NCBI GenBank assembly: GCA_900315395.1
Contig: OMZC01000028.1
Span: 1-45,180 of the forward strand
DNA: 45,180 nucleotides
Direction of reading: 5' to 3'
Source of the DNA: an uncultured Gammaproteobacteria bacterium
GTDB taxonomy: Bacteria > Pseudomonadota > Gammaproteobacteria > Enterobacterales > Succinivibrionaceae
Positions 9,145 to 36,521 of the stretch are shown here, in pieces. A program made the position numbers and the translations under genes. The first letter of the stretch is position 1, and the number at the start of each line of letters is the position of its first letter. The notes under the pieces are model-generated. The model worked only from the letters and a program-made list of their open reading frames with translations, made no database searches and was not told where the DNA came from.

Positions 9145-9156
9145 ACAGTTTCTTAT

Positions 9157-9364: not shown

Positions 9365-10273
9365 TTATTTAATTCGGTCTCTAGTTAACTCAAAATCTAA
9401 CCCAAAACAGTCTGTCTTTAATCTTGCTTTATATATTTGAGCAAATGGGTATTTTTTGTAGAAATTCATTGTATCTTCTTTATTACTAGAATATTTAACA
9501 CCTAGATATATACTTTTTAACGACTTAATCGAAAAAGGAACATAGCAATATCCACAATCTCTTACAGACTTTAGGCATTCCTCGGATACATTTCTACTAA
9601 CAAGATTGTTATCTCCGTCATCTTTTACATAGTACAAAAAGCGGATCTCTTGTTCGTATTGCCAACAATTTGCTTTGTAATAATAGTTTGCTGACAAGTA
9701 TTTAGACATATCACTAGAATCATTTTCAAATAGGATCTTATTTAAATCTATACAAGGGATCTTATTTGTATATTCCATATGATATTTCTCATCCGCTGAT
9801 AATTCATTGACCTCAAATTCTAAAACAGCCCCCTTGTGCTTTTCAGCATAATGACTCCACATTAGAAGACTATCTTTAGTCTGAGAAAAACAACAAACTA
9901 TGTTAGTTTCACTCGGTTTTGGGGTCTCAAAAATGAAATCAAAAGCATTACCGTCTTTCGTATTATTTATTAAATTATTTATAAATTGAACTCTATCTTT
10001 CATTAGTAATTCTATTCGTTTACTATTGTGTGATAGATATTCATGAAGATCTTTTTGAAATCTATTATTAGGAAGAGGCTTCCAATTGTTATCCAAATAA
10101 GAGGATATACATTCATCAATCAAATCGAAAACTTCTGTCTCGTTCCTTTGACATTTTGCAGGAATATGAGTGTCATAAGGATCATTAAATACCCAAGGTT
10201 GACTAAATTTTAATGTATTATTCTTTAAAGTTTCAGTTAACCCATTAGCATCTAAGTATTTATATATTTTCAT
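9365..10273 (-). CDS. DUF2971 family protein
   Basis: This 302-aa protein matches the DUF2971 pattern: an N-terminal KIYKY, then LKFSQPWVFNDPYD (about residues 22-35), and the central CFSQTKDSLLMWSHYAEKHKG block (about 133-152). The ATG at 10273 is chosen over a TTG two codons upstream. The biochemical function is unknown; members are frequent in phages and defence islands. It is on the same strand as, and downstream of, the ATPase-helicase pair at 10470-16201, but about 200 bp away, so membership in that transcript is uncertain. Confidence 0.75.
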   Translation of the reverse strand: MKIYKYLDANGLTETLKNNTLKFSQPWVFNDPYDTHIPAKCQRNETEVFDLIDECISSYLDNNWKPLPNNRFQKDLHEYLSHNSKRIELLMKDRVQFINNLINNTKDGNAFDFIFETPKPSETNIVCCFSQTKDSLLMWSHYAEKHKGAVLEFEVNELSADEKYHMEYTNKIPCIDLNKILFENDSSDMSKYLSANYYYKANCWQYEQEIRFLYYVKDDGDNNLVSRNVSEECLKSVRDCGYCYVPFSIKSLKSIYLGVKYSSNKEDTMNFYKKYPFAQIYKARLKTDCFGLDFELTRDRIK

Positions 10274-10469
10274 AATCAATAAAATTTATTTATTTGCAAA
10301 TGTTTTCTTTCAAATCGATTTTGTAATGCTTCATCTAGTCCATCTTTTATAAGCTTCATTTTTTCTGGAAGACTGTTATTTTTGACCAATTATACAAATT
10401 CATTCTTATTTATTACGAAGACAACTACATCGGCAACGTCAAATCGTATGGGAACGATAACAAGTATGA

Positions 10470-16201: not shown

Positions 16202-16414
16202 GCAGGTATTACCTCAATTCAGAAAGTTTGTATACCATAACAAATATAATAATTTTTTTAGTTTTGAACAAGTTATTTAGAAAACAGTTAAAGACTAAAA
16301 AAAAAACACAGATATTATCTTGTATATTACAAAGAGCAATTCTTGATATAAAACTAATATGCTATTGTTTTACTATTGTACAAGTGAACTTCCGTATTTA
16401 ACAAAGGTCGTATT

Positions 16415-18214
16415 ATGAAAAAAAAAGAATATTTAGAAAATGTGCCAAAGGCTGAGATTGACACAGCACAAAAGCTAATGTCTCGATTGGATGAAATAAC
16501 AGCTCATCTTAAATCAAAATTTTATTTGTTTTATAACAGTATTTATAAAGACCTAAAGACTTATAATTCTGATTTTTTTTTCAAATGGGTTGATCAATGT
16601 CTTCTTCCTTATGGACCATTTCTCTTTTACGTTAATAACTATGTAAAAGAGACTCAAAATGAATGGTTCAGATACATTGGACCATCTGCCTCTGAAATGA
16701 ATGAATTGTACACATATGGAATTTGGGAGCTATCAAAATCAGTCTATAGATTTGATGAAAATTTGTTAAAAAGTTTACCAAAACAGCGGTTAGATGTAAA
16801 AATACCCGCCCATGTGCTTAAGAATCTTCCTGAATGGTGTGTTTATGTTGAAACTTCCTCTTGGGATATCTCTGGACCTGCTCCATACGGATATTTTGCC
16901 TTAGTAGATTATCATCCCCAGGACGGTTTTATCTTAAGGATTTCATTAGATTTTCCAACTTTTTTATTGCCTCTAGGATTTGCGTTAAACCCAAACAATT
17001 CATTCGAAGAAGTTTTAAATGATGAGGAAACACACTATTACAACAGAGAATCCGAGTATTCTGATATGAATGATGCTCGCATAAAGGCAGAAGAATATGG
17101 ATTAAAAATAAATTATAAAAGACAAGTTTTTTCAAATCCTAAAGAATCACAAAATGTGTATTCTGTAGAGTGGAAGGAATACGCAAAAGAAGTTCTCAAA
17201 AAGATCATCCCTCAGCTTTTATATCTTTGTGCTGCAAACAGAGAATTGTCAAATGAAACAAATCCATCGCAACTTATAACAAGATCAACTCTTACTGTTT
17301 CTAAAGACAAACAACCTTTTTTATCTGTTAATGAAAAGCCTTGTTATATTTACGTTGGAAAGACAACTGGAAGTTTACTCAGAGATACAACAGAACCAAT
17401 TAACTTTGATTTCATAGGAAAAGATGTTAACCAATATATTGAGATCAAACACAAGCAAATTAAATCTATTAGTGAAACAAATAGAGATGAAGAAAAAAAT
17501 ATAGAAATGATAGTCTCCCTTGCAAACTCTATGAGTGCTGTATTGGAACAATATAAGGAAACACAAAAGAGTCTTCAAAGAATAAGCAAAGAAAATCTTG
17601 AAATAAAAGAAGATAATAAGAAATATTTTGATGAAATCATTGCATTGGATAAAGAACTAGCAGACACACATAGAGAATTCGCAGAAGCTCTAGAACAACA
17701 AATAAAAGATTTTTATGGAAATTCCAAAGAAGAATTGCAAATAGACAATCTACACCTTGATGTTATTCGCAAAGTTATCCAGGATAAAACTTTGACTGCA
17801 ACTGAATGTCTTAAGTTAATTGAGTATTGCTATGCTGATAGAGTACAGATCTTAAATAATGCATGGGCTTCAGCAAAAGAAATCGATTCTATTTTTACTA
17901 GGGGTGATAAATTAAAAAATCTGTTAATTAAATTAGTGACTGATTATTTGGATTGTTATTTAGAGAATGGAGATAGTAAAGCTAGGTTATTATTTGGAGA
18001 AAATTATGCTGCACAGGAATCTGAAACTGTTGAGACTAATCCAACTCTAAAGAAACAACGTACATTTTCAGGTGTTACTATGTTCCAACACCTAAAAATT
18101 GGAGTTGCACATAATCCATCAGAAACGGCCAGAGTTTATTTTTGGGTAAATAAGGATTCTCACAAAGTCTTAATCGGATATTGTGGAAAACATTTAGAAA
18201 TTAGTAAAAAATAA
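16415..18214 (+). CDS. AcrVA2-like domain fused to coiled coil and C-terminal domain
   Basis: This is a 599-aa protein. Residues about 60-330 recall the anti-CRISPR AcrVA2: LYTYGIWELSKSVYRFDE, then LPEWCVYVET (about 138), GYFALVDYH, a region around IPQLLYLCAANRELS (about 268), and a later SVNEKPCYIYVGKTTGS. AcrVA2 lowers Cas12a production. This protein is nearly twice as long, with a coiled coil (about 345-430), a helical domain (about 440-520), and a tail TARVYFWV..KVLIGYCGKHLEI. The tail resembles compact beta domains at the ends of uncharacterised toxin-like proteins. No cas genes are present, so the ancestral role is probably not Cas12a-specific. The assignment is from memory of AcrVA2, not a search. 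Confidence 0.55.
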   Translation: MKKKEYLENVPKAEIDTAQKLMSRLDEITAHLKSKFYLFYNSIYKDLKTYNSDFFFKWVDQCLLPYGPFLFYVNNYVKETQNEWFRYIGPSASEMNELYTYGIWELSKSVYRFDENLLKSLPKQRLDVKIPAHVLKNLPEWCVYVETSSWDISGPAPYGYFALVDYHPQDGFILRISLDFPTFLLPLGFALNPNNSFEEVLNDEETHYYNRESEYSDMNDARIKAEEYGLKINYKRQVFSNPKESQNVYSVEWKEYAKEVLKKIIPQLLYLCAANRELSNETNPSQLITRSTLTVSKDKQPFLSVNEKPCYIYVGKTTGSLLRDTTEPINFDFIGKDVNQYIEIKHKQIKSISETNRDEEKNIEMIVSLANSMSAVLEQYKETQKSLQRISKENLEIKEDNKKYFDEIIALDKELADTHREFAEALEQQIKDFYGNSKEELQIDNLHLDVIRKVIQDKTLTATECLKLIEYCYADRVQILNNAWASAKEIDSIFTRGDKLKNLLIKLVTDYLDCYLENGDSKARLLFGENYAAQESETVETNPTLKKQRTFSGVTMFQHLKIGVAHNPSETARVYFWVNKDSHKVLIGYCGKHLEISKK

Positions 18215-18269
18215 ATAATAAGGATCGCCTGCGCACTTAAATGGGTAAATGAGATTTATAGGGATAGTT

Positions 18270-18684
18270 ATGTTTAGTAAACAGCCTATTTACGGTACAA
18301 AACCAACGAGTTTTCCTCCAGAAACAAAGAAACATAACATAACCATTTTAAACTATATTCCATCAAGGTACAGGTCAATCCTTAGCCAGTAAGAAAATAT
18401 GAAAGTTTTGGATTTGCTTTCATGCTGTCTTTCTATGATTAAGATGACAAATCATCAATTGGTGAACCTGATTGGGCTTTAACTGATTTTTTTATTAGCA
18501 AAAGTAATCTACGGGAATATAAATAATTCCTCCGATGGATATGTTCCTCTTAATATAATTATTGAAACTTGTCTTTGAACCTTTAAAGCATGGAAACCAT
18601 TCTTTTAATGCTTTGACATATAATTTCAGAGGAAAAGTTGAGAAAAAAAATCCATGGTGGCTTACTATTTATATTTTAAAGTAA
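18270..18684 (+). pseudogene. Decayed coding remnant
   Basis: Protein-like segments appear in shifting frames. An ATG at 18270 with GGGATAG upstream gives MFSKQPIYGTKPTSFPPETK... to TAA at 18390. A later frame reads FAFMLSFYD-*-DDKSSIGEPDWALTDFFIS. A last segment reads HGNHSFNALTYNFRGKVEKK... NPWWLTIYILK and ends in TAA at 18682. Several stops and frameshifts separate them. The family is not recognised. It fills the gap between the AcrVA2-like and UvrD genes. Confidence 0.45.
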
Positions 18685-18724
18685 CTGTTCGATGATTAAC
18701 TAAGATAGATTTCTGGTAGTAAAA

Positions 18725-21469
18725 ATGAAAATATGCAAATATTGTGGAATACTAGAACTTGATGATAATAGTAAATATTGTGAACACTGTGGAAAGTCCT
18801 TCGCAAATGAAAGTCTAGATAATAAAAAAACAAGAGACAAATCGCAACAGGAAGTAATTGATATTTGTGAAGGTTCCCATCTGGTTCTTGCACCTCCAGG
18901 ATGTGGGAAAACAGATATCTTGGCAGATAGAATAAATCAAGCAATAACTAATGGAATTGCTCCACATGATATGTTATGCCTTACTTTTACCAATCGAGCC
19001 TCAAGAGGAATGTTGGCCCGAATTAGGCAAAATATTAAATTCGATACATCAGAAATATTTGTCGGCAATGTTCATAGATTTTGTTCTCTATTCTTATACG
19101 AAAATGGTCTGGTCCCGCTAACCACCTCTATCCTCGATGAATTTGATATATACAGTATTTTGCTTGATTTATGTAAAAAGAATGAGTCTACTGAATTGGA
19201 TTATTCTGCCAGAAAATACTATGACGAAATTCTAGATATTCAACACCACATCTATCAGTTAAAAAATAATCATCCAAAATCTGTTCAAAAACAGATTAAT
19301 AAAAATCTAGAAATAATTAGCAGTCAATGTGGTTTGTCACCAGTAGAGCTATATGATAAAGCAGAAGAAATAAACCTGGGAAATTTTTATTCCAGGGAAT
19401 TAACTGAATATCTTGAACTTGTTAAAATTGCAAAACAATATGAGGTTTATAAAAATAATTTCTCTTTATTAGATTTTGATGATCTGTTGCTTAAGGCATA
19501 CACTGTCTTATCCAATCCAAGCAGTGAACACAAACGTTTTAAATGGATTCAGGTGGATGAAGTTCAGGATCTTAATCCTTTACAGCTAGCCATATGTGAT
19601 CTCTTAATCTGCAAAAATGACAAAAGCTGTATTGTATATTTTGGAGATGAGCAGCAGGCTATTTTTTCATTCTTAGGAGCAAGTTTAAATCAACTTAGAA
19701 TTTTAAAAGAGCGCTGTGGAGATAATCTTCACTATTTACAAAACAATTACCGATCTCCTAGCTACTTACTTACCGTATTCAACGAATTTGCAAATAGAGA
19801 ATTAGACACAGAACCTGAGTTTTTACCGAAGCCAACAAAAATTGAAAATGCTCAGCAACTTGATCGGGTTATATTTAGAAGTCCAGATTTTGCTTCCGAG
19901 GAAGATTATGCTGTAAGGCTATGTAAAAAAATATTTAAGTTACCTTGTCGGCATGAACAAGATCAGCAACGAATAGCAATACTTGTAACCAAAAATGAAG
20001 ATGCAGATTCCATTGGTGAGAAATTTGCGGCCTCAGGAATTCCGTATTTCAAACTATCCGGGAGGGATGCGTTTTCATCTCCCGCTGTCAAAACACTGTT
20101 TTCTCATATTTCTGCATGCTGTTTTGAGAACAATATTATTGCGTGGGCAAAGATTTTTAGACAGTTAAAGCTGTTTAAAGGTACAAATCAATATGCCCAA
20201 TCTAGGCATTTTATAAAGAATATGTCTGAATGTATGATGTGTCCTTCAGACTTAATTCAATATGAAGACTCTTCGTATTTAAATGAATTCTCAAAAGCTT
20301 ATTTAGGTGAAATTGTATTATTTGATACGGAGACAACCGGATTAAATATTTATGAAGATGATATTGTTCAAATTGCAGCATTGAAAATCATAAACGGAAT
20401 TGTTACTGATAGCTTTTCAATTATTCTTGAAACTGAAAAGGAAATTCCTCTTTATTTGGGGGAAATACAAAACCCTTTAGTTGAGGAATATAACAAAGAG
20501 TCAACTCATAAATATAAAAGAGCAGAAGGGTTAAAATTATTTCTTTCCTTTATCGGAGAAAACAACATCCTAGTAGCTCACAATGCCAATTTTGATTATC
20601 ACATTCTTGATAACAATCTGAAACGTGATCTTTTAGATAATGACTTTTCAAAGCGTTATCCTACCTATTTTGATACTCTGAAGATTACAAAACTCGTTAG
20701 TCCTCACCTAAGAAGCTATAAATTAAAGAACCTGATTTCTGCTTTTAATTTGGACGGTCATAATTCTCATCTGGCTCAGGATGATGTAGAGGCGACAAAA
20801 AACTTAATCGACTATTGCTTAAAACTATTTAAGCCCCAGCAGGAAAAACAAGAAAAATTCTTTGTTGAAAATCGTGGAATAATTGATTTATTTAAAGCTA
20901 AATACAGCAAAGCATGGCAACACACTCAGTTAAGACTTTTTATAAAGAATGAGGATATGGATAGATGTCTTCTGACAGAAGAATTATCCTGGTTGTATGA
21001 GTATTTTATAGGACTTGAACTGTTTAAGCCTTGTGAAAAAATAGACCATATCATGCGTTTTCTCAAATCAAATGTAATTGATACCGTAAAGGAATTAACG
21101 TTAAACGAACAAATATCAAATCATGCAATTGAGTTAGGAACATATAAAGAAGCTGACTTGTGTGAAAGTGGCGTTGTAAAAGAAAAAATATTTATAGCAA
21201 CTGTTCATAAGGCAAAAGGCTTAGAGTTTGAAAATGTTTTGGTAATGAATGCGATCGAGGACTTTTATCCTTTTTACAACTCTCCCAATATACAAGAGGA
21301 TGCAAGAAAGTTTTATGTTGCAATTTCAAGGGCAAAAATTAGATTGTTTTTGATGACAGTTGAAAAGAAAAAAGTATTCAGTAAAAAGTACGAAAAGTTT
21401 TTTGAATTTAATGCTGAACAAAGTAGATTCATTGACTGTATTAAGAATTATTTTGAATACTATTACTGA
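18725..21469 (+). CDS. UvrD-like helicase with inserted DnaQ-type exonuclease and N-terminal zinc ribbon
   Basis: This is a 914-aa fusion. The N-terminal zinc ribbon has CKYCG (residues 4-8) and CEHCG (19-23). SF1A helicase motifs flank a nuclease: Walker A APPGCGKTD (about 56), LTFTNRA, QVDEVQD (about 277), GDEQQAIFSFLGA, and at the far end ATVHKAKGLEFENV (about 825) and FYVAISRAK (about 863). Between the helicase halves sits a DEDDh 3'-5' exonuclease: FDTETTG (about 534), HNANFD (about 619) and HLAQDDVEAT (about 680). All catalytic acidic residues appear intact. The enzyme should unwind and trim DNA 3' ends. Its place between defence genes suggests a defence role. It has a weak ribosome-binding site. 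Confidence 0.85.
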   Translation: MKICKYCGILELDDNSKYCEHCGKSFANESLDNKKTRDKSQQEVIDICEGSHLVLAPPGCGKTDILADRINQAITNGIAPHDMLCLTFTNRASRGMLARIRQNIKFDTSEIFVGNVHRFCSLFLYENGLVPLTTSILDEFDIYSILLDLCKKNESTELDYSARKYYDEILDIQHHIYQLKNNHPKSVQKQINKNLEIISSQCGLSPVELYDKAEEINLGNFYSRELTEYLELVKIAKQYEVYKNNFSLLDFDDLLLKAYTVLSNPSSEHKRFKWIQVDEVQDLNPLQLAICDLLICKNDKSCIVYFGDEQQAIFSFLGASLNQLRILKERCGDNLHYLQNNYRSPSYLLTVFNEFANRELDTEPEFLPKPTKIENAQQLDRVIFRSPDFASEEDYAVRLCKKIFKLPCRHEQDQQRIAILVTKNEDADSIGEKFAASGIPYFKLSGRDAFSSPAVKTLFSHISACCFENNIIAWAKIFRQLKLFKGTNQYAQSRHFIKNMSECMMCPSDLIQYEDSSYLNEFSKAYLGEIVLFDTETTGLNIYEDDIVQIAALKIINGIVTDSFSIILETEKEIPLYLGEIQNPLVEEYNKESTHKYKRAEGLKLFLSFIGENNILVAHNANFDYHILDNNLKRDLLDNDFSKRYPTYFDTLKITKLVSPHLRSYKLKNLISAFNLDGHNSHLAQDDVEATKNLIDYCLKLFKPQQEKQEKFFVENRGIIDLFKAKYSKAWQHTQLRLFIKNEDMDRCLLTEELSWLYEYFIGLELFKPCEKIDHIMRFLKSNVIDTVKELTLNEQISNHAIELGTYKEADLCESGVVKEKIFIATVHKAKGLEFENVLVMNAIEDFYPFYNSPNIQEDARKFYVAISRAKIRLFLMTVEKKKVFSKKYEKFFEFNAEQSRFIDCIKNYFEYYY

Positions 21470-21930: not shown

Positions 21931-22488
21931 ATGTTTTTCGATAAAAATTCTTCTAGTAACATCCAGCCACAATCAATGGCAATGAAGTTGATAGAGCAAA
22001 TAGGTTTTGATGATGCATGTATAGTTATATACGGAATTTTGTATACCTTATTTCAAGATAACTCAGTAATGGTTGTTCACAAAAAAGTAGCACAATTCGT
22101 TAGGGAAGAATTCGATGCTGCTGTAGGAGGAGATGACTTTGCAAGAAATTTTGTAAAAACTAAATGTCCGGATTCAAGCTGGTATAAAGGAGCAATGAAT
22201 GAACAGGCTGAATTTCCTATTGACCAAGATGGAGGTCCTCAACAGACATTATTAGCAATAACAGCGCAAATGATGCAAGACGACGATGTTCTTGCTGTAA
22301 AAATGAGATGCACTGTGGTTGGCTTTTTTTACGATGCATATAAAGCAGCAGAACTCAATATGAAATATCAAAATAGAGTTCCGTTAACAGAAGCAGGCAT
22401 TGTAATGGAAGTAGGAGAAAGAAATAAAAGAATAAATGTTTTATATGCTAATCCAAAAGTCAGGGAAATACTTGGAATTCGAGGTTAG
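21931..22488 (+). CDS. Hypothetical protein, 185 aa
   Basis: The ATG at 21931 has a good ribosome-binding site (ATGAGGT, 6-8 bases away), and a clear terminator follows. The protein is soluble and acidic. It has a helical core (IEQIGFDDACIVIYGILYTLF; VHKKVAQFVREEFDAA) and a C-terminal NVLYANPKVREILGI. I do not recognise the family. It is monocistronic by layout and sits between the UvrD-exonuclease gene and the RNA-repair locus, with no evidence that it belongs to either. Confidence 0.7.
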   Translation: MFFDKNSSSNIQPQSMAMKLIEQIGFDDACIVIYGILYTLFQDNSVMVVHKKVAQFVREEFDAAVGGDDFARNFVKTKCPDSSWYKGAMNEQAEFPIDQDGGPQQTLLAITAQMMQDDDVLAVKMRCTVVGFFYDAYKAAELNMKYQNRVPLTEAGIVMEVGERNKRINVLYANPKVREILGIRG

Positions 22489-22492
22489 TACA

Positions 22493-22524
22493 AGAGAGTG
22501 TGAACTCACTCTCTATTTTTTTTT
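22493..22524 (+). terminator. Rho-independent terminator
   Basis: AGAGAGTG (22493-22500) pairs perfectly with CACTCTCT (22507-22514), followed by a run of nine or more T. It ends the gene at 21931. Confidence 0.9.
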
Positions 22525-22644
22525 GGGGGTTAAGTATCATGTGCCAATGAGTCGAGCTCTAAAACATGAACACATATTCTCATTAACCTCCAAAAGATAA
22601 AGTTCATAATTTTACGACTCACATTATGTGTATCTAACTAATTT

Positions 22645-22739
22645 CATTGTTGCCATGGCAACATCCTATATTTTTTTACATTGTTGCCGTGGCAACATCT
22701 ATAAATCTTCTTATTTTTTTCATTGTTGCCGTGGCAACA
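22645..22739. repeat. Three palindromic repeats CATTGTTGCCRTGGCAACA
   Basis: Near-identical 19-bp copies lie at 22645-22663, 22679-22697 and 22721-22739. The core TGTTGCC-R-TGGCAACA is palindromic: copy 1 has A at the centre and copies 2 and 3 have G. Copies 2 and 3 are preceded by T-runs. Such phased palindromes suggest binding sites for a dimeric protein. Spacers are only about 15 and 23 nt, so it is not a CRISPR array. Confidence 0.85.
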
Positions 22740-22870
22740 ACTTAATAATACTTATAAAATATAGGATCTAGTCATTCTAATAGACAATTAATTTTTTTCC
22801 CTTCTTCAATTATTGAATTTTATCATTACGTTTAAAAAAAAAGAAGAAACAGCGGTAATCAAGATAAAAG

Positions 22871-22923
22871 TAAGTCCCTCACTTACTTGCCACAGAAGAA
22901 GCGTGGAAGTGTTAAGGGACTTA
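22871..22923 (-). ncRNA. Stem-bounded RNA module, single arm; possible terminator of the RNA unit
   Basis: On the minus strand TAAGTCCCT pairs with AGGGACTTA (9 bp). Inside, CACTT pairs with AAGTG and CCAC with GTGG around a 9-nt loop. The 3' side runs into ACTTTTATCTT, then an oligo-T run near 22840, so this last module may also end transcription of the array. Confidence 0.5.
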
Positions 22924-22998
22924 ACGAAGATAAATTCTACTAGCATCGAGAATTTTTACATATTAAGGCGCCACCCAGAATACAACTTCTTAATGTAA

Positions 22999-23104
22999 TC
23001 TGAACTGAAGAGGAGGGGTACGTGGTATTTTTAAAGCGTCTATCTATGCTCCCCAAATAATGGTTATCGGTCTGCCCCGTATTTCCGAAGCAACTTAGTT
23101 CAGA
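22999..23104 (-). ncRNA. Stem-bounded three-way-junction RNA module C
   Basis: The outer stem TCTGAACT/AGTTCAGA is 8 bp. Read on the minus strand, arm 1 is TCGG-(AAATACGGGGCAGA)-CCGA and arm 2 is GGGG...CCCC with a long loop. Position by position this is the layout of the modules at 23129 and 23363, but arm 1 is TCGG/CCGA instead of GTAG/CTAC, which are compensatory changes. The loop start AAAT(A/T)CG is kept. Confidence 0.6.
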
Positions 23105-23128
23105 GATAGATTCATCAAACAAAGCCCA

Positions 23129-23203
23129 TGTAATTTACTGGGAGTACGCAGAAGCCTCCTTACGAGTAGTGTGAATGCGAATTTCTACAGCACATAAATT
23201 ACA
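23129..23203 (-). ncRNA. Stem-bounded three-way-junction RNA module B
   Basis: On the minus strand the outer stem is TGTAATTTA/TAAATTACA (9 bp). Arm 1 is GTAG...CTAC with loop AAATTCGCATTCACA, and arm 2 is GGAG...CTCC. It shares the blocks GTGCTGTAGAAATTCG and CTACTCGTAAGGAG with module A at 23363, while the arm 1 loop and arm 2 loop differ. Confidence 0.65.
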
Positions 23204-23208
23204 CAGAA

Positions 23209-23276
23209 AAAGGTTATTCGACGTACTGCCCCTTATCTCCTTTTACGTATTCGGTGGCTCCCCGATTACAACCTTT
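23209..23276 (-). ncRNA. Stem-bounded RNA module D
   Basis: The outer stem AAAGGTT/AACCTTT is 7 bp. Read on the minus strand, arm 1 is TCGG-GGAGCCA-CCGA and arm 2 is ACGTA...TACGT. It lies 5 bp from module B. It has the same two-arm plan but little primary sequence in common with modules A and B. Confidence 0.5.
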
Positions 23277-23362
23277 CTTATCCTACCATTATAGAATTTT
23301 AATATTCCATATTTTGATATTAGAACTAATATAATGATTATTTAGGCTGATAAACCTATGCT

Positions 23363-23450
23363 AGGTAACTTAGAGGGAGCACGAGCAGGATTTTACACCG
23401 ATCTCCTTACGAGTAGTATGGGCCCGAATTTCTACAGCACTAAATTACCT
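23363..23450 (-). ncRNA. Stem-bounded three-way-junction RNA module A
   Basis: On the minus strand AGGTAATTTAG pairs with CTAAGTTACCT over 11 bp including one G-U pair; on the plus strand the same position would be a C-A mismatch. This favours the minus strand as the RNA strand. Arm 1 is GTAG-(15 nt)-CTAC and arm 2 is GGAG...CTCC. The shared blocks with module B are given there. Confidence 0.65.
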
Positions 23451-23575
23451 AAAATAGATTTTCCCGATTTTTAATAGAACAACGGTGAAAGCAATCCTGG
23501 CATAATTGGCATCGACTGAAACGTTTTAACATCGACTGCCAAGGCAAAGACAAAGAACAAGCCCCAGACAAAGAC

Positions 23576-23684
23576 CAGCATAGATCCTTTTAATGTTCAG
23601 TATCTATGCTGACAATACATCTTTTTGTAATCGTATTTTTACACGACCGATTACAGTCTTGAGGATTATGCAAATCCGCATAAT
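23576..23684 (-). ncRNA. Three consecutive hairpins downstream of the third rtc-operon gene
   Basis: The stems are CAGCATAGAT/ATCTATGCTG (23576-23611, 10 bp), TGTAATCG/CGATTACA (23626-23655, 8 bp) and ATTATGC/GCATAAT (23665-23684, 7 bp). They start 80 nt after the stop of the gene at 23765-24655, between it and the modules at 22871-23450. None has a terminator-like T-run on the minus strand. They may be part of the same structured transcript. Confidence 0.5.
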
Positions 23685-23764
23685 AATTGTGTTGCTGCCA
23701 AAATTGCCTTCATTAAGATCTGCTTAAAGTCCATTGAGACTTAGGAACAAATCAGCCTAATTCT

Positions 23765-24655
23765 TTATTTCTCCAGATCACTCAGAAAATCATATGTCTT
23801 CTGAAGATCAGCAGGAAGCACTATTTTAAGATTCATTAACTTCTTATTCTCCTTGAGTTGCCAGTCTTTAAACTGAATCATCAGTTCAGAAAGCCTTGCT
23901 TTATACTTTTCCTTCTTAAATTTGAACTGATTGTTATTTTCAATCTCCATTTCAGAGACCTTTCTTTTTATCTGGTATTTTATCTGGTTGAGCTTCTGTT
24001 CATTTGCTCTATGCCATTTTTGCAGCTCAAAGAACAAAGCATCAACCTTATAACTATCAACGGAAGGTTTATGAGACAAAATTAAAGTATCTTTTCCTTC
24101 CCCCTGAGTACTGTACGGTTTTAATAAGCTATCCAGTAAATGAGCTCTGGCCAAAGAAATTGCTCCGTTATTATGAATGTACTTTCCTATGGATGAAGCT
24201 ACAGCCTGATAATAAAAGTACTCATTTCTTTCCTTAACGTTGAAATCTGCAATTACATCAGATGCCTCATATTTATCATCTCTTTCAGGCTCTTCCTCAA
24301 GTTCAAGATTATTCTCTTTAGCCCATTCCTTAAAATCCTTATTTTTTATATAGTTATATTCATCTTCTTTGGCCTTAATTGCTTCCCTCATCCAGGCAGA
24401 AAAAGCGTTTAGTTTTGCTATCTTCTCAAGGGCATCCCTAACCTCATTTAGATTCTGTTCAGTAAGGCCTAAATTAATGATTTTTCCTTCCTGACTTTGG
24501 GAACCAACAATATCTATACTGGTTGTAACAAAATTCAGATTATTAATTTTTGCTTCATATCCTACAACCAGCTCCTTAGCCAGATTGGCGAGATGGTCCG
24601 CTGAAGTCGAGGTAATTCCATGATCACCGAAGAATACTGAATTTATTTTTTTCAT
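23765..24655 (-). CDS. Uncharacterised third gene of the rtcA-rtcB operon
   Basis: This is a 296-aa protein with a good ribosome-binding site (AGGTGAGG). The N-terminal half is compact (MKKINSVFFGDHGITSTSAD, then LANLAKELVVGYEAKINNLNF). A helical charged segment follows (about residues 95-135), then SLARAHLLDSLLKPY, and a basic coiled coil at about 205-275 (KWHRANEQKLNQIKYQIKRK). I do not recognise the family. It lies 111 bp downstream of rtcB on the same strand and just upstream of the structured-RNA array. An RNA-related role (binding, folding or processing of those RNAs) is the obvious inference, not shown. Confidence 0.75.
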   Translation of the reverse strand: MKKINSVFFGDHGITSTSADHLANLAKELVVGYEAKINNLNFVTTSIDIVGSQSQEGKIINLGLTEQNLNEVRDALEKIAKLNAFSAWMREAIKAKEDEYNYIKNKDFKEWAKENNLELEEEPERDDKYEASDVIADFNVKERNEYFYYQAVASSIGKYIHNNGAISLARAHLLDSLLKPYSTQGEGKDTLILSHKPSVDSYKVDALFFELQKWHRANEQKLNQIKYQIKRKVSEMEIENNNQFKFKKEKYKARLSELMIQFKDWQLKENKKLMNLKIVLPADLQKTYDFLSDLEK

Positions 24656-24681
24656 AACCTCACCTTTAAATTCTATTGAGC

Positions 24682-24748
24682 AACCTGCTGCAGAGAATCA
24701 AAATAATTTAGATTCAATACGTTATTTTTTATTTCATAACAGCAGGTT
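24682..24748 (-). ncRNA. Stem-bounded element between rtcB and the third gene
   Basis: AACCTGCTG and CAGCAGGTT form a perfect 9-bp stem that encloses about 49 nt. The gap between these two operon genes is unusually long (111 bp) for an otherwise tight operon. The element has the same closed-by-a-long-stem plan as the modules at 22871-23450. It could instead be a processing or attenuation site. Confidence 0.5.
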
Positions 24749-24766
24749 TACTGTTAATAAATTTCT

Positions 24767-26197
24767 CTAAAACTTCTTTCCTGACATCTTTACTAGTCTT
24801 GGATCAAACCTAGCTAGAATATCCACAAGATCATGTTGGGATGTCATTACCTTTTCAATGTCCTTATAGACCTCCGGAGACTCATCCAACTCTCCTGATA
24901 ACAAGGTAATTCCTTTATCTCCTAGCAGTTGCAGCATATTCTCCTGGTTCAGAGTCTTAAAAGCTGCTTTTCTACTCATAAGTCGACCTGCTCCATGCGA
25001 GCATGATGAGAATGAGTCCGGATTACCTTTTCCCCTGACTATAAATCCAGATGTTCCCATTGAACCTGGGATTACCCCTAAAACGCCTAAACCTGCAGGA
25101 GTAGCACCTTTTCTGTGGATAATTAACTCCTTGTTGTCATACATCTCTTTCCAGGCAAAGTTATGATGATTCTCCACATATCCCAATGTGGAGCATCCAA
25201 GATAATCAATTATTCTTTTGTGTATAAGTTCATGATTTGCTGATGCATATAATCCCATTAGCTGCATTGCTTCCCAATATTCCTGACCTTCAACAGAATC
25301 CATGTATAACCAGGCTAAATGCTTTAGCTCCTGAGGTAACTCGTGATGGTATGACATTGCAACTGAGCTGTAATATTTTGCTACCGCCTCACCTGCCCCT
25401 CTTGAACCGGAATGGGATAGTAGAGCCAGATATGTTCCTGCCTTTATCTTCAGTCCAGGTTCATCGATATCTCTATCAACAGCAAGCTTTCCAAATTCTA
25501 CAAAATGGTTGCCTGAACCACTTGTTCCAAGCTGAGAATGAGCCTTTTGAAAAAACTCCTTTAACACATGTATTTCATTCCATGAATGGTGCTCCATAAC
25601 TTTGTGATCAAGCCTGTTATTCTTGTCAAAATGAACTCCAACACCAAACATGGTCTGAGACTCAAGCGCATCTGTTAGATTCTGTTTTCTTTGGTCGTAT
25701 TCCTCATAAGGAATATCGAGAATTGATATTCTCATTCTGCAGGCAATATCAACTCCTACAGCATAAGGAATTACTGCATTTTCAACAGCTAGTACCCCTC
25801 CAATTGGCAAGCCATAGCCGGTATGCGCATCAGGCATCAGAGCCCCACCAAAGCTTATAGGTAGTCTGCATGCATTTATCATCTGTTGTACCGCAGAGGA
25901 TTCAACACCATCATCAGCCCATGATTTCCATAGAACAGGAGATTTTCTTTCAAAGAATAATCTGTGGGACTTTCTTGCCTCTGAGAGTTTTGCTGCAAGG
26001 TCTGATAAGTATCCCAGAGCATTTCCTAAATCAACCTCAAGAGGATGCTCACTCAGGGATAATTCTTCAAGAATAGCAGCAATGTCAGTCCCGTTTACCC
26101 CATCGCTTAAAGCTTTATTAGCTCCCTTCAGTGCCAGACCAACAATCTCTCTGTCTCTTGGAATTCCCAACTGATATAAATTATTTGCATTAAACAT
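24767..26197 (-). CDS. rtcB: RNA-splicing ligase RtcB
   Basis: RtcB joins RNA 2',3'-cyclic-phosphate (or 3'-phosphate) and 5'-OH ends using GTP and Mn2+. Visible motifs are MPDAHTGYGLPIGG (about residue 121), GVDIACRM (about 147, with the metal Cys), GTSGSGNHFVEFG (about 224), HSGSRGAG, ENHHNFAW, and CSHGAGR with the guanylylated His at 401. At 476 aa it is longer than E. coli RtcB, with about 75 extra N-terminal residues, and it has GVDIACRM where E. coli has GVDIGCGM. This marks a divergent RtcB subfamily. It starts 9 bp after rtcA with an AGAGGT site. Transcription is expected from the sigma54 promoter at 27279. Confidence 0.93.
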   Translation of the reverse strand: MFNANNLYQLGIPRDREIVGLALKGANKALSDGVNGTDIAAILEELSLSEHPLEVDLGNALGYLSDLAAKLSEARKSHRLFFERKSPVLWKSWADDGVESSAVQQMINACRLPISFGGALMPDAHTGYGLPIGGVLAVENAVIPYAVGVDIACRMRISILDIPYEEYDQRKQNLTDALESQTMFGVGVHFDKNNRLDHKVMEHHSWNEIHVLKEFFQKAHSQLGTSGSGNHFVEFGKLAVDRDIDEPGLKIKAGTYLALLSHSGSRGAGEAVAKYYSSVAMSYHHELPQELKHLAWLYMDSVEGQEYWEAMQLMGLYASANHELIHKRIIDYLGCSTLGYVENHHNFAWKEMYDNKELIIHRKGATPAGLGVLGVIPGSMGTSGFIVRGKGNPDSFSSCSHGAGRLMSRKAAFKTLNQENMLQLLGDKGITLLSGELDESPEVYKDIEKVMTSQHDLVDILARFDPRLVKMSGKKF

Positions 26198-26206
26198 ATG
26201 AGACCT

Positions 26207-27250
26207 CTACTTCATTAATCCTTTGACTTCAACATGCCATAAACCATCATCAATACATCTGCAGTCGATTGGTGTACCTATAAATTGCTCGATTACTCTT
26301 GAGCAGGATTTAAAATGCTCACTTGGTTCTCCCATTAAAAAGCATCCTCCTGCGGATAAAGTAAGCGGAACCAGAAGCTGATCTGCAAGATGCATCTCAC
26401 ATGGAGCATCTTGCTGTAAAAATTCCTTAGCCTGACAGCACACATCCATTGTTAAGTTTTCAGCCTTAAGATGAGGCATTCCGATTTTAGAAAAAACTGT
26501 TTTTCTATTACGATCGTCTGATGCGATTATGAATACCGCATTTCCACAACCTAACGCAGAACAGCTACGGACTATTTCTGTTTCAATCTCAGGAAACTCC
26601 TTTTTCATAACCATAAGTTCTCTTTGTGCAATATCTTCATCAAGTCTTATATTTATGATGTGCCCCTGTAAATTTTTAAGCTTTGTTTTTTCTGTCAATT
26701 CAAATCTTTGCGCTTTAATCTGTGAGTTTATAATCAGTCTTACAATTCCTCCACCAACAGAGTAAAAACCAGCTCTATCCTCAATTATTTCCAAGCCGTA
26801 GCCCATCTGTTTCAGACAAGGGAGCAGAGTTTTCTTTAAAAATGCTGTTGAAGGTGCCAGAGGACAGAATGTTCCCCCCTTAATCTCAACTTCTATTTTC
26901 CCTGATGAATTCATTGCCAGTGGATAGGTAATAGCCTGCAAGACAAGGGCAATGCTACCCCCTGTACCAATGTTAAAGGAATAGTTTTCTGATCTGACCT
27001 TCATTGGGATGAATGTAAGTTCTGTAGAACGAAAATCCGCCCCTTCAACATGGGCATCACTTATCTGCTTACAGGCAATTACACAGGTTAAATGCTGCCT
27101 CATCAGCCCTTCTTTATTTCTATTCTTGCGGATATTACTTATATGAAAGCCGGTCTGTGTGGCCATGGACATAGCAAGAGCAGTTCTTAGCACCTGACCA
27201 CCGCCTATACTTCCATCTACCTCTATCAGCTTATTTAACGTTGTATCCAT
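26207..27250 (-). CDS. rtcA: RNA 3'-terminal phosphate cyclase RtcA
   Basis: RtcA uses ATP to convert RNA 3'-phosphates to 2',3'-cyclic phosphates. The 347-aa protein has the IDGSIGGGQVLRT-type N-terminus (here VDGSIGGGQVLRTAL, residues about 8-22), EVEIKGGTFCPLAPS, and HLADQLLVPL near the C-terminus with the adenylylated His. The ATG at 27250 has GAGGA eight bases upstream. A TTG at 27283 would extend the frame, but it falls inside the -12 element of the sigma54 promoter and is rejected. This is the first gene of the operon rtcA-rtcB-(23765 gene), divergent from rtcR. Confidence 0.95.
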   Translation of the reverse strand: MDTTLNKLIEVDGSIGGGQVLRTALAMSMATQTGFHISNIRKNRNKEGLMRQHLTCVIACKQISDAHVEGADFRSTELTFIPMKVRSENYSFNIGTGGSIALVLQAITYPLAMNSSGKIEVEIKGGTFCPLAPSTAFLKKTLLPCLKQMGYGLEIIEDRAGFYSVGGGIVRLIINSQIKAQRFELTEKTKLKNLQGHIINIRLDEDIAQRELMVMKKEFPEIETEIVRSCSALGCGNAVFIIASDDRNRKTVFSKIGMPHLKAENLTMDVCCQAKEFLQQDAPCEMHLADQLLVPLTLSAGGCFLMGEPSEHFKSCSRVIEQFIGTPIDCRCIDDGLWHVEVKGLMK

Positions 27251-27278
27251 TTTGAATTCCTCGTTTTCCAATTTATAG

Positions 27279-27294
27279 AGCAATGAGTGTGCCA
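27279..27294 (-). promoter_or_regulatory. Sigma54 (RpoN) -24/-12 promoter of the rtc operon
   Basis: The minus strand reads TGGCAC-ACTCA-TTGCT. This matches the sigma54 consensus TGGCAC-N5-TTGCW exactly, with invariant GG and GC at the right spacing. It lies about 30 bp upstream of the rtcA start and faces away from rtcR, the sigma54 activator next door. Confidence 0.93.
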
Positions 27295-27411
27295 GATTGT
27301 TTATCTTCTTGAATATTAAAGAAATGATACGATTTAGAATATGAACTATAATTAGTGAGATAGCTTTTTATTGATAAATATTTATCTAAGTTTATATATT
27401 TTTATATATAT

Positions 27412-29031
27412 ATGAGAAAGAAAACTGTTGTCATAGGATTATTAGGTACCGTTTTAGATAACCGTAAAGGAAAAAGAAGATGGGATCGCTGGAGACCAAC
27501 TGTTTCTATTGGTCAGCATGACGATTTATACGTTGACAGGCTGGAGATTCTTCATCAGAGCAATTTCTCTGAAATTGCCAATATAGTAAAAGAGGACTTC
27601 GAGCAGGTCTCTCCTCACAGTAGAGTTAATCTACATGAGGTGTTATTTTCAAAACCCTGGGATTTCGAAACTGTATATAAAACTCTTCTGGATTTTGCTA
27701 AAGACTATAAATTTGACCTGGATAATGAAGAGTATCTAGTCCATATTACAACAGGAACACACGTAATGCAGATTTGCTTATTCCTGCTTGTGGAGTCTCG
27801 TATTATTCCAGCAAAGATATTGCAGACAGGAGTAAGTGAAAGTAAAGATCCTGCAGGAATCTATAGCATCATCGACCTTGACTTGTCAGCTTATGACAAA
27901 CTTGCAGAACGATTTGCAACTGTTAATAGACAAGGTATCCACTATCTAAAATCAGGAATCCCAACACGAAACGCTAAATACAATGCTCTAATTGAGACTA
28001 TTGCAAAAGTTAGTTCAAGCTCAAGTGATCCGATTCTGATTACAGGACCGTCAGGAGTAGGAAAAACCAGACTAGCCCACCTGATTTACGAATGGAAGAA
28101 GAATAATCACATTGTAGAAGGTGCTTTTGTTGAACTTAACTGTGCTACTTTAAAAGGCACATCAGCTATGTCAGCTCTTTTTGGCCATACAAAAGGAGCT
28201 TATACAGGAGCGGATGAGAAGAGAAAAGGTTTACTTTCTCTTGCAGATGGAGGATTACTCTTCCTTGATGAAATAGGAGAACTGGGACTTGATGAACAGG
28301 CAATGCTCCTTCGTGCAATTGAGGAAAAAAGATTCTACCCTTTGGGCTCAGATGTTGAGAGTAGCAGTAATTTTCAGCTTATATGCGGAACCAATCGTGA
28401 TTTAAAAAAATTAGTTCAAAAAGGTTTATTCCGTGAAGATCTACTCTTTAGAATCAATCTTTGGACATTCGAACTAATGGGGCTTAAGGATAGATCGGAA
28501 GATATAGAGCCTAATCTTGATTATGAACTGGAACGTGTTTCTACAAAGCTAGGTAAACAGATAAGAATGAATAAGGAAGCTCGTGAGATGTTCCTAAAAA
28601 AAGCCACTTCCGAAGACTCTCTTTGGACAGGAAACTTCCGAGAATTATCAGGTGCTGCAACAAGAATGGCAACGTTGTCACAGGGAGGTAGAATTACTGT
28701 GTCCGAGGTTAACGATGAGTTTGAGAAACTCAGTAAAAACTGGAATTATGATTCCTCATCCAAGAAAGACTCAATATACTCAAGTGCAAGAAAACTCCTT
28801 GGAGAAAAAGCTGAAGAAATAGACCTTTTTGAGTTGTCCCAGTTAGACTGTGTTATCAATGTTATTCTGAAATCAAAATCATTATCTGAAGCAGGAAGAA
28901 AACTGTTTGCAAATACAATAAAACAACGAAAAACGTCTAATGATTCTGACAGACTAAGAAAATATTTGGAAAAATATAATTTGGACTTTAATGGAATAAT
29001 TTCCTTCTTTGATAAATTTCCACCTAATTAA
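27412..29031 (+). CDS. rtcR: RtcR, CARF-domain sigma54 activator
   Basis: RtcR senses RNA damage products and activates sigma54 transcription of rtcBA. Residues about 1-185 form the RtcR/CARF domain (TVVIGLLGTVLDN, then HITTGTHVMQICLFL). The AAA+ domain has Walker A GPSGVGKT (about 213), the sigma54-contact loop GAYTGA (about 262, Tyr replacing the usual Phe), and Walker B LLFLDEIGE (about 281). The C-terminus is helical and presumably binds upstream activating sites. The gene is divergent from rtcA with 161 bp between starts. The Tyr variant occurs in some activators and does not by itself indicate inactivity. Confidence 0.94.
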   Translation: MRKKTVVIGLLGTVLDNRKGKRRWDRWRPTVSIGQHDDLYVDRLEILHQSNFSEIANIVKEDFEQVSPHSRVNLHEVLFSKPWDFETVYKTLLDFAKDYKFDLDNEEYLVHITTGTHVMQICLFLLVESRIIPAKILQTGVSESKDPAGIYSIIDLDLSAYDKLAERFATVNRQGIHYLKSGIPTRNAKYNALIETIAKVSSSSSDPILITGPSGVGKTRLAHLIYEWKKNNHIVEGAFVELNCATLKGTSAMSALFGHTKGAYTGADEKRKGLLSLADGGLLFLDEIGELGLDEQAMLLRAIEEKRFYPLGSDVESSSNFQLICGTNRDLKKLVQKGLFREDLLFRINLWTFELMGLKDRSEDIEPNLDYELERVSTKLGKQIRMNKEAREMFLKKATSEDSLWTGNFRELSGAATRMATLSQGGRITVSEVNDEFEKLSKNWNYDSSSKKDSIYSSARKLLGEKAEEIDLFELSQLDCVINVILKSKSLSEAGRKLFANTIKQRKTSNDSDRLRKYLEKYNLDFNGIISFFDKFPPN

Positions 29032-29076
29032 ATTTATATAGTTAGGATTAAAAAATCTGTTGAGTAGGTATTAACC

Positions 29077-30099
29077 GTGAAGATAAAAAAAGACATTCTA
29101 TTAAGACCTGAATACACTTTTCTTAGGGAAAATGAGCATCTTGGAGATAAAATTATTCTCTTAGCTCTTACCGGTAGCCATGGCTATGGCACAGCTAATG
29201 AGAACAGCGATATTGATCTTCGCGGTATAACACTGCCTTCAAAAAGAGATTTGTTAGGCTTTAGTGATTTTGAACAGATAGCAGAGCCTAATACTGACAC
29301 CACTATTTATAGCCTTAATCGCATGGTTCAGCTTTTATGTAAATGTAATCCTAATACCATTGAACTCTTAGGATTAAAGCCTGATTACTACTTTATTCTG
29401 GAAAAAGAAGGTCAGGAGCTCTTAGATAACCGCAGAATGTTCTTATCCAAAAGAGCAATCTACTCCTTTGGTGACTATGCAAAATCCCAGCTTCGACGTC
29501 TGCAAAATGCAATTGCCAGAGATAAGCTGACACAATCTCAGAAAGAAGATCATATTTACAACTCTTTAGTAAGAGCATTAAGGAATCTTGAAGGCAAATA
29601 CGCTGAGTTTGAGAACGGCAGTATTGTCTTAAGTAAGGGCCTGGCGATAAATCCTGAACTCACAGATGAAATCTTCGTGGATGTTAACCTTAAACATTAC
29701 CCAATCAGAGATTACAAGAATATTCTGTCTGAACTTGAGTTTGTAGTCAGAGATTATGACAAACTGCAGAGCAGAAACCGCAAGAAAGATGATGAACATT
29801 TAAACAAACACGCTATGCATCTTGTAAGACTATTTCTGATGGGAATTGATCTTCTTGAAAAAGAAGAAATCATAACCTACAGAGAAAAGGAACAAGATCT
29901 GCTTTTAAAAATCCGACACGGCTACTATCAATTGGAAGATGGATCTTACAGTCAGGATTTCTTTGATCTTATTGATGAGCTCGAATCAAAATTCAAATAC
30001 GCATCAGAGAATACATCTCTTCCGGATAATCCTGATATGAATCGTATTGAAGACTTTGTTATGTCTGTAAATGAAAGGGTGGTCTATGATGATAGATAA
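29077..30099 (+). CDS. RlaP-type nucleotidyltransferase (DNA polymerase beta superfamily)
   Basis: A 340-aa protein with the nucleotidyltransferase signature LTGSHGYGTANENSDIDLRG (residues about 32-51): the Gly-Ser of the fingers and two metal Asp in SDID. It then has a helical C-terminal half. This matches the RlaP/YcgL family, which was named for its link to RNA-repair operons. It presumably adds nucleotides or NMP to RNA ends or another acceptor. The GTG start at 29077 has a modest AGTAGG site. It lies 45 bp after rtcR and overlaps the next, related gene. Confidence 0.85.
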   Translation: MKIKKDILLRPEYTFLRENEHLGDKIILLALTGSHGYGTANENSDIDLRGITLPSKRDLLGFSDFEQIAEPNTDTTIYSLNRMVQLLCKCNPNTIELLGLKPDYYFILEKEGQELLDNRRMFLSKRAIYSFGDYAKSQLRRLQNAIARDKLTQSQKEDHIYNSLVRALRNLEGKYAEFENGSIVLSKGLAINPELTDEIFVDVNLKHYPIRDYKNILSELEFVVRDYDKLQSRNRKKDDEHLNKHAMHLVRLFLMGIDLLEKEEIITYREKEQDLLLKIRHGYYQLEDGSYSQDFFDLIDELESKFKYASENTSLPDNPDMNRIEDFVMSVNERVVYDDR

Positions 30100-30862
30100 G
30101 ACTCATCTTGAAAAGATTCAGGAGCATTTGAAAGATATTGAGCTTCAGCATGAGATAAGAATTCTTCATGCCATAGAATCCGGAAGCAGAGCCTGGGGAT
30201 TCCCATCTCCTGACAGTGATTACGATGTACGTTTTATTTATGTTCAAAAAACTGAATGTTACCTGTCACTAGATAACGAGAAAGAACAGCTTGAATACTA
30301 TCCAGACAGTGAAATGGACATTATCGGATGGGATTTAAAGAAGTATCTTAAACTCGTTTACAAGTCCAACAGCGTTACTTTTGAATGGGCCAACTCACCA
30401 ATTGTTTATAAAACCACTCCAGAATGGAACATTGTCAAAGAGAAAATTCCTCTGTATTTCAATGAAAGAGCTGGCCTACATCATTATCTTGGTGAGGCTG
30501 CTCATATACTGCATCTATGTGAAGATAAGAATAGCATCAGCTACAAGAAATATCTTTACATACTGCGAGTAATACTTGCCTCTAGGTATATAGAGAAACA
30601 CCATAATATCCCTCCTATGCTATTTGAGGAGCTGATAGCAGATAATCTGCCAATTGATCTTGAAGCATCACTAAGAGAAGTATTGACTTGTAAGGCTCAG
30701 GTTCAGGAAAATGATCAGAATAAGAGGTTTTCTGACTTAGATGTATTTATCAGAGACGAACTTCAGAGACTTAAAGCTTATGCGAACAGTCTTAAATGCA
30801 GAGATAAGTTGGCTTCTGAAGAGTTATCTAAGCTTTTATATTCGGTAATCATGAGGCGATGA
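30086..30862 (+). CDS. Second RlaP-type nucleotidyltransferase
   Basis: A protein of about 258 aa with LHAIESGSRAWGFPSPDSDY-DVRF near residues 24-47, the more typical RlaP signature (GSRAWGF and SDYDVR). The ATG at 30086 (or 30089) follows AAGGGTGG; the upstream ATG at 30071 has no good site. It overlaps the stop of the first RlaP gene, so the two are translationally coupled. They differ strongly outside the catalytic core, so they may act on different substrates or as a heteromer. No terminator is seen before the broken membrane gene at 30906. Confidence 0.87.
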   Translation: MMIDKTHLEKIQEHLKDIELQHEIRILHAIESGSRAWGFPSPDSDYDVRFIYVQKTECYLSLDNEKEQLEYYPDSEMDIIGWDLKKYLKLVYKSNSVTFEWANSPIVYKTTPEWNIVKEKIPLYFNERAGLHHYLGEAAHILHLCEDKNSISYKKYLYILRVILASRYIEKHHNIPPMLFEELIADNLPIDLEASLREVLTCKAQVQENDQNKRFSDLDVFIRDELQRLKAYANSLKCRDKLASEELSKLLYSVIMRR

Positions 30863-36445: not shown

Positions 36446-36521
36446 TGGTGCTGGCAGTAGGGCTTGAACCCACGACCCCCTGTTTACAAAACAGGTGCTC
36501 TACCAACTGAGCTATGCCAGC
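36446..36521 (-). tRNA. tRNA-Thr (anticodon TGT)
   Basis: A 76-nt gene with encoded CCA (TGG at 36446-36448 on the plus strand). The acceptor stem is GCTGGCA/TGCCAGC, the D arm GCTC...GAGC, the anticodon stem CCTGT/ACAGG around loop TTTGTAA (anticodon TGT, reading ACA), and the T arm GTGGG-TTCAAGC-CCTAC. All arms pair. It lies between the conserved gyrB-glyQS side and the accessory region on its 3' side, which is the usual side for island integration into tRNA genes. Confidence 0.97.

Follow-up and report, generated by a model that had tools for sequence, protein, structure and literature searches.

The window, a stretch of 45,180 nt from an uncultured gammaproteobacterium of the Succinivibrionaceae (GenBank assembly GCA_900315395.1, contig OMZC01000028.1), carries behind the RNA-repair genes rtcA and rtcB a gene for a protein of 296 amino acids (p296) and, directly behind this gene and on the same strand, a conserved structured RNA of about 290 nt (Table 1). 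Protein gene and RNA form a pair, as the initial annotation of the window had proposed: in all 26 homologues whose downstream DNA is readable, the RNA was recognised behind p296 (weakest in loci L006 and L043), its structure is supported by covariation, the pair is conserved in distant bacteria, gut Bacteroidales among them, and in phages, and it recurs near genes for RtcB, Thg1 and tRNA. Neither the protein nor the RNA belongs to a described family (Pfam, NCBIfam, PHROGs, Rfam). That the two make up a mobile ribonucleoprotein which acts in responses to RNA damage, with a role like that of Ro60/Y RNA and no relation to that pair in sequence, is in our judgement an evenly balanced proposition. 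The 26 loci consist of 15 used in the strand-swap tests, three near-duplicates kept outside these tests (L021, L023, L046) and eight found later; the sixteenth tested locus is a relic, and L024 ends before the RNA.

Table 1: Positions of the p296 RNA, its elements and the genes of the rtc locus in the window.
Feature	Positions	Strand	Assignment or evidence
Conserved structured RNA, begins at p296 stop codon	23474..23766	-	covariance model, fold z, strand-swap tests
5′ hairpin P2	23717..23753; arms 23753-23746, 23724-23717	-	strand-swap test; covariation in Bacteroidales
Long-range helix P3, encloses array	23486..23712; arms 23712-23696, 23502-23486	-	strand-swap test; covariation
Helix P4, 3′ arm reaches hexamer array	23576..23611; arms 23611-23602, 23585-23576	-	strand-swap test over 16 loci
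Hexamer array 2, a run of six six-base units flanked by P4 and P5	23540..23575	-	lag-6 score; composition
3′ hairpin P5	23508..23540; arms 23540-23530, 23518-23508	-	helix 5 of Bacteroidales alignment
p296, 296 aa, partner gene of the RNA	23765..24655	-	no known family; homologues in phages and Bacteroidales
rtcB, RNA ligase	24767..26197	-	Pfam RtcB PF01139, 287.4 bits
rtcA, RNA 3′-phosphate cyclase	26207..27250	-	TIGR03399, 274.1 bits (cut-off 250.05); Pfam RTC, 202.8 bits
Sigma54 promoter TGGCACACTCATTGC, exact, before rtcA-rtcB-p296-RNA	27294-27280	-	sole match in window
rtcR, CARF-AAA sigma54 activator	27412..29031	+	NF038308, 723.9 bits (cut-off 650)
RlaP-type nucleotidyltransferase, divergent copy	29077..30099	+	PF10127, 71.6 bits (cut-off 23)
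RlaP nucleotidyltransferase, overlaps the divergent RlaP-type gene	30071..30862	+	PF10127, 235.3 bits (cut-off 23)

The common order of elements after the stop codon is P2, the 5′ arm of P3, P4 and a pyrimidine-rich array of four to seven six-base units (unit counts made by eye). In the bacterial type P5 separates the array from the 3′ arm of P3, which in most phages adjoins the array directly; several phage RNAs hold shorter arrays of two or three units within the loop of P4. The units, of consensus R-N-Y-H-U-Y, are placed between two helices, an unusual RNA architecture; their composition over the 16 tested loci was: position 2, pyrimidine (64 of 64); position 4, U (62 of 64); position 6, G or A (60 of 64). 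A coding function of the hexamer stretch, which would be read as a peptide of alternating V/A/D/G and F/L/I, was rejected: the frame has no upstream start codon in L004, L007, L008, L021, L043 and L045, arrays 1 and 2 are out of frame with each other in L025, L026, L030 and L008, and all 64 units would have a pyrimidine as wobble base; in the remaining eleven loci at least one possible start is present and the frame is open for 31–90 codons.

The window RNA (23766-23474, minus strand) folds far better than its shuffled versions (z −5.46; reached by 0 of 200), and the lag-6 score of its array (23 of 36) was likewise reached by none of 200 shuffles. Within 420 nt past the stop codon, lag 6 was the sole best of lags 3–12 in 13 of 19 rows, tied in 2 and lower in 4; the best lag-6 place of L020 lies off the array. 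At least five perfect units were found within 400 nt at 8 of 19 gene ends and once elsewhere (330,765 bases of 20 loci, both strands); at least four units, 11 times near gene ends and 10 times elsewhere in the same bases.

Pairing was examined by strand swaps over the 16 loci, in which the score of each locus's own helix was compared with those of exchanged partners. P3: mean 30.6 against 20.7 permuted, 0 of 20000 permutations, own partner best in 11 of 16; in the window the own helix beats all 30 swaps, L020 and L043 fail (equalled or surpassed by 16 and 23 of 30 swaps), and L004, L008 and L044 are reached by 2, 1 and 3 swaps. P4: 23.4 against 15.3 permuted, 0 of 20000, own best in 10 of 16; L004 fails (20 of 30 swaps), the window, L002, L006, L043 and L044 are reached by 1–4, and in 16 of 16 loci the pairing takes in the base directly before the first unit (the motif served to set the starts of array 2 by eye, and the P4 region was defined to end there). 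P2: 16.0 against 13.6 permuted, 12 of 20000, own partner best in only 2 of 16. The control strand gave 9917 of 20000 permutations. A first pairing test with whole-region duplex energies did not discriminate (own partner best in its row in 3 of 16 and in its column in 6), and a local-helix score limited to a short 3′ region was reached by 0 of 20000 permutations overall, with the window failing (own 17, swapped mean 18.4) and L004 weak; the 3′ region of the P3 test was widened after a hairpin between array and helix had been noticed in bacteria. The best P3-type helix starts 1 to 61 nt from the stop codon, depending on the locus; P3 is therefore described as a long-range helix whose identity across loci is unproven.

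Hold-out, covariation and covariance-model tests are independent of the array starts set by eye and of the widened 3′ region. In the hold-out loci L129–L136, which form two clusters of similar sequences, the RNA was found in 8 of 8 and lag 6 was best in 8 of 8. For nine Bacteroidales RNAs, near-identical sequences among them, the RNAalifold structure leaves the array unpaired and has 95.5% of its cells paired (cells overcount events), a value that falls to 35–46% in slid registers; 26 of 42 pairs have compensatory changes (shuffled mean 9.9; 0 of 500), among them 8 of 13 pairs of P3 and 6 of 8 of P5. The covariance model built from these nine RNAs (model R1) finds the window RNA in place (23764-23476, minus strand, 62.7 bits, E 3.8e-13) and the RNA of a relic in the same-genus genome G032 (81.7 bits, E 1e-17); it has no other match below E 0.1 in 391,975 bases (25 loci, both strands, ten other rtcR loci included). 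In unfiltered mode, scores on the gene strand are 6.3–14.6 bits for six of seven RNAs from phages or divergent bacteria and 2.5 for that of L029, so that model score links the phage and bacterial forms less than protein homology and architecture do. A reverse search of IMG/VR with the phage array pattern gave nine stretches, four of them with p296, all on contigs already known, and five antisense to long phage frames (199–509 codons) that add no support; no RNA without a p296 gene was found in this pattern search.

The relic bears on whether the RNA is a separate molecule. In G032 the last 41–44 residues of p296 are left and about 85% of the gene is gone; the full-length RNA is kept (L032, 9861-9595, minus strand), between what we take to be ttcA and a gene that looks like an HNH gene. 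An RNA that is merely a cis-acting 3′ element of the p296 messenger, by binding to which p296 would control the stability or translation of that messenger, with no separate particle, would agree with a start at the stop codon in the loci read (the searches were protein-led) and with a scan in which no minus-strand promoter-like site was found at or just before the RNA (scan total near chance); but five helices with up to two arrays are very elaborate for such an element, and in the relic the RNA has outlasted most of the gene, so that we regard this explanation as unlikely.

Members of the p296 family share the motifs L-T-S-T-S-A-N, A-W-x-R-E-A-I-K-A-K-E, G-K-Y-I-H-P, L-Q-x-x-H-R and L-K-I-x-I-P (alignments). 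The initial annotation did not recognise the protein, and no match was obtained in Pfam, NCBIfam or PHROGs, no nuclease family match and no family or solved-structure match of note; PADLOC gave only a weak match to PDC-M02A (59 residues, E 0.0029), and TROVE is not among the 25 weak families listed, of 32, for 11 members. Bacterial p296 was found at 3 loci among 84,980 species (one genome per species; patterns reach close relatives only), in 4 of 393 Bacteroidales genomes, in 12 of 399 genomes of one Bacteroidales family (1 already known, 3 weak) and in 3 of 395 genomes of the phylum of the Bacteroidales (1 known, 2 weak). Matches in the family of the window amount to 3 of 56 genomes (the window, one relic, one spurious) and in its order to 3 of 295 (the window, the relic, one weak). 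Viral copies: 2 of 50,697 phage records and 11 IMG/VR contigs, some near-identical; none was found among 72,556 plasmids. Dropped as homologues were L003 (the match sits in an acetyltransferase-like frame), G025, G920 and G1028 (E ≈8e-4), and G1181, G1355 and G1456 (short or weak matches).

The initial annotation had made its proposal depend on homologues adjacent to rtcB or to such RNA; besides the RNA described above, rtcB was found near p296 in 5 of the 14 bacterial gene-bearing loci (window, L004, L005, L006, L029, L030, L129–L136), at 111 nt in the window, 1.4 kb in L005, 3.7 kb in L131, 4.3 kb in L132 and 4.2 kb in L136. The rtcB of L131 was also checked with Pfam; L131 and L132 are alike, which leaves about four independent cases, and the contig of L130 ends before the place of rtcB. 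In 9 of the 14 loci there is no rtcB in the stretch fetched; the pair is thus not a dedicated rtc component. In L030 the distance from p296 to a downstream gene for the tRNA-repair polymerase Thg1 (9801-10562) is about 740 nt; in between lie the RNA and, directly before Thg1, an odd tRNA call with a four-base anticodon (9525-9612). tRNA genes are present in 7 of 13 phage loci, ending at most 60 nt 5′ of p296 in L007, L021, L045 and L046 and lying within about 1.3 kb in L008, L020 and L043; the fetched stretches of L022, L023, L024, L025, L026 and L044 hold none. Among the bacteria, a tRNA is called about 460 nt behind p296 in L029 and L030, and none nearby in L004, L005 and L006. Neighbouring proteins (blastp clusters, Pfam on examples) were DUF6557-like in 9 of 15 sets, DprA/SLOG-like in 8 and WYL-like in 4; no paper on DUF6557 was found in the open literature. 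In L005 p296 and RNA are followed by a tubulin/FtsZ-like gene; in L133 such a gene overlaps the called p296 start. In L131 (2038-3857) RtcB is followed directly by a Fic/DOC gene.

From these data a mobile particle may be pictured as follows. The pair would be passed around by phages and bacteria and used upon damage to RNA, most likely tRNA, and in the window it would have been taken in at the end of the rtcA-rtcB transcript. RtcR would sense tRNA fragments with cyclic phosphate; sigma54-dependent transcription of rtcA-rtcB-p296-RNA would follow, as gene order, strand, promoter site and the lack of a minus-strand terminator match in 22480-24800 suggest, and the RlaP enzymes would probably be switched on too. 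The P2–P5 scaffold would then present one or two pyrimidine-rich strands, on which p296 would probably be loaded, one copy per six bases, to judge by the pairing of gene and RNA and by the six-base period. The particle might finally keep broken tRNA in place, protect it or hand it to the repair enzymes, as Ro60/Y RNA may do elsewhere; this role in tRNA repair is suggested by the genomic company. Tentatively, the pair could stand for a new class of mobile ribonucleoproteins in which protomers line up on a folded RNA scaffold, each on one hexamer; phages would have invented or spread it next to their tRNA genes, and bacteria would have taken it up into RtcB, Thg1 and RtcR loci, where it would serve as sensor, shield or workbench for cut tRNA. 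If so, it would be a second, unrelated protein-RNA pair found by RtcB in two distant groups, by Thg1 once and by phage tRNA genes; such recurrence would suggest that RNA repair needs a particle of that kind, and the pair would offer a small, testable system.

Several observations weigh against a ribonucleoprotein of this kind. The full-length p296 proteins are acidic (pI 5.0–6.4), unlike many RNA-binding proteins; p296 and rtcB of L005 (6650-10195, Bacteroides contig) are each disrupted once, by a frame break and an internal stop, and this copy may be decaying; p296 of L136 is broken. The low pI and the isolated phage copies are reasons for caution. Lag 6 is not best in L006, L007, L029 and L043 and is only tied in L030 and L044. 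The strict unit pattern matches only one of the eight hold-outs; the hexamer consensus therefore looks looser in bacteria. When the window RNA is folded alone, part of the array is paired in the lowest-energy structure. Of 14 gene-bearing loci searched with model R1, the RNA goes undetected in 12 (L006, L007, L008, L021, L022, L025, L026, L029, L030, L043, L044, L045); L020 reaches only E 0.15, and the sole match in L043 (E 0.35) sits away from the RNA. No tRNA is found nearby in any of L129–L136. RtcB was found in only 1 of 5 and 1 of 10 p296 carriers (genomes or records) searched whole (in the latter on another contig), a set of 15 that includes the G032 relic and leaves the hosts of L129–L136 outside.

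The low count of RtcB among the carriers, with no match in the G032 genome, and the presence of the pair in phages speak for passive cargo of phages, brought behind rtcB at random and without any link to RNA repair. Against such chance stands the presence of rtcB within about 5 kb in 5 of the 14 bacterial loci, in at least three arrangements and both in the lineage of the window and in Bacteroidales, with Thg1 in one more; passive carriage is held to be quite unlikely.

A mobile protein gene with a repeat-bearing RNA also recalls type III toxin-antitoxin systems (ToxIN), in which the repeat antitoxin RNA lies before the toxin gene and restrains ToxN; in the p296 loci the RNA lies behind the gene (26 loci), the 6-nt unit is placed inside a larger fold, and there is no ToxN-like family match. 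A defence pair of toxin-antitoxin-like or abortive type, with p296 restrained by the repeat RNA and RtcB as mere defence-island company, would suit the mobile, patchy and phage-carried occurrence of the pair, its bacterial neighbours (DprA/SLOG, WYL and Fic/DOC genes among them), the defence-rich stretch of the window and the relic with most of the protein lost and the RNA kept, but the order of gene and RNA and the absence of a nuclease family match for p296 speak against it, and we hold it to be very unlikely.

Among the closest known counterparts of the proposed ribonucleoprotein is Ro60 with Y RNA. The initial annotation saw neither a Ro60 gene nor a Y-RNA motif, and both observations held: no TROVE/Ro60 match was found in the window genome (assembly 92.62% complete), and no Y RNA or YrlA match in 22500-23900 scanned against Rfam at E up to 10. 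Eleven RNA regions searched at E up to 5 gave no Y RNA or YrlA, only chance matches and one sub-threshold tRNA-like core; at gathering thresholds eight homologous loci gave tRNAs only, and the window one tRNA (36449-36521, about 12 kb off p296) and no other match. The tRNA-like core, in the RNA of phage L025 (8981-9033; 27.5 bits, gathering 29), has D, anticodon and T arms and no acceptor stem; it was seen in none of the other ten RNAs scanned and was not used as support. The pair at most works like Ro60-Y RNA and is not a member of that family; that it replaces the Ro60-Y RNA pair, as had been suggested, is something we infer from position and company.

According to PMC7790460, RtcR of Salmonella senses tRNA fragments with cyclic phosphate, and the rsr-yrlBA-rtcBA arrangement (Salmonella; Rsr-Y RNA in Deinococcus) likewise combines a protein gene and a structured non-coding RNA with RtcR-controlled rtcBA. 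The window pair differs from it in having no TROVE, Y RNA or YrlA, in its place behind rtcB instead of before it, and in hexamer arrays where the other RNA has a tRNA-like domain. Phage RNA-repair and tRNA modules (RtcB, Rnl, RlaP, tRNA clusters of jumbo phages) share with the p296 phages the tRNA genes (7 of 13 loci); p296 and its RNA are not among the phage components named in the consulted passages of PMC7824862, and no description of the pair or of such a locus was found in titles and abstract openings of the open literature.

The window locus is a bona fide RtcR-controlled RNA-repair locus: rtcR divergent from rtcA and rtcB, followed by two coupled RlaP-type genes, was read correctly in the initial annotation and is borne out by the matches to NF038308, Pfam and NCBIfam and by PF10127 in both of the overlapping genes. 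With one mismatch allowed, about 1.3 chance matches to the sigma54 site are expected in the window; the site is credible because of its place before rtcA. The listed rtcA start (TTG 27283) overlaps it, that is, lies inside the promoter, and ATG 27250 is the likelier start. An ISL3 transposase gene stands directly behind the RlaP genes (Pfam scan).

RtcR above cut-off was found in 15 of 247 sampled genomes of the order, the window genome being the sole one among 18 members of its family; of the 14 other rtcR loci, 13 were fetched. No TROVE occurs in these 14 genomes and no p296 at the 13 loci, and none of the ten loci searched with model R1 matches it. These loci (L104–L116) are of the form rtcR // tRNA-like gene - Band_7 - rtcB - (rtcA) - (rlaP); they share with the window RtcR, RtcB and, in part, RtcA and RlaP. 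Nine of ten neighbour proteins picked are Band_7, and in 7 of 10 loci scanned with Rfam the space from rtcR to the operon holds a tRNA or tRNA-like gene. They thus often hold a structured RNA as the window does, but of tRNA or tRNA-like kind and in that other place; a non-coding RNA seems to be common in the rtc regulon, and the window has a different one. Some of the tRNA-like genes of L106–L115 match the inner part of the tRNA model only.

The initial annotation had taken about 0.9 kb of gene-free sequence (22871-23684) for an array of structured RNA modules. A single module of about 290 nt was found instead: the gene-proximal third (23766-23474) is conserved, and the rest was not found elsewhere. 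The whole of 22850-23700 gave z −2.69 on the minus and −2.45 on the plus strand (20 shuffles each); both strands fold about alike, so the whole-region signal is weak and it is the specific RNA module that counts. In the rest there is a 38-nt direct repeat (23156-23193 and 23403-23440, 87% alike) with weak folds (z −2.10 and −0.90), whose exact pattern occurs in 0 of 55 other genomes of the family and on no IMG/VR contig. A strong minus-strand hairpin within 22860-22960 (z −3.57) is perhaps near the transcript end. Three near-identical palindromes TGTTGCC(A/G)TGGCAACA, spaced 34 and 42 nt (22647-22740), are possibly operators. Further on, the flank 1577-21469 is rich in defence genes: a PIF1-like helicase, a type ISP restriction-modification pair, a Sacsin-like ATPase with helicase, an NsnC-like gene, and a UvrD-type helicase, for which PADLOC gave matches to RTasHel and GajB and which also has an exonuclease match.

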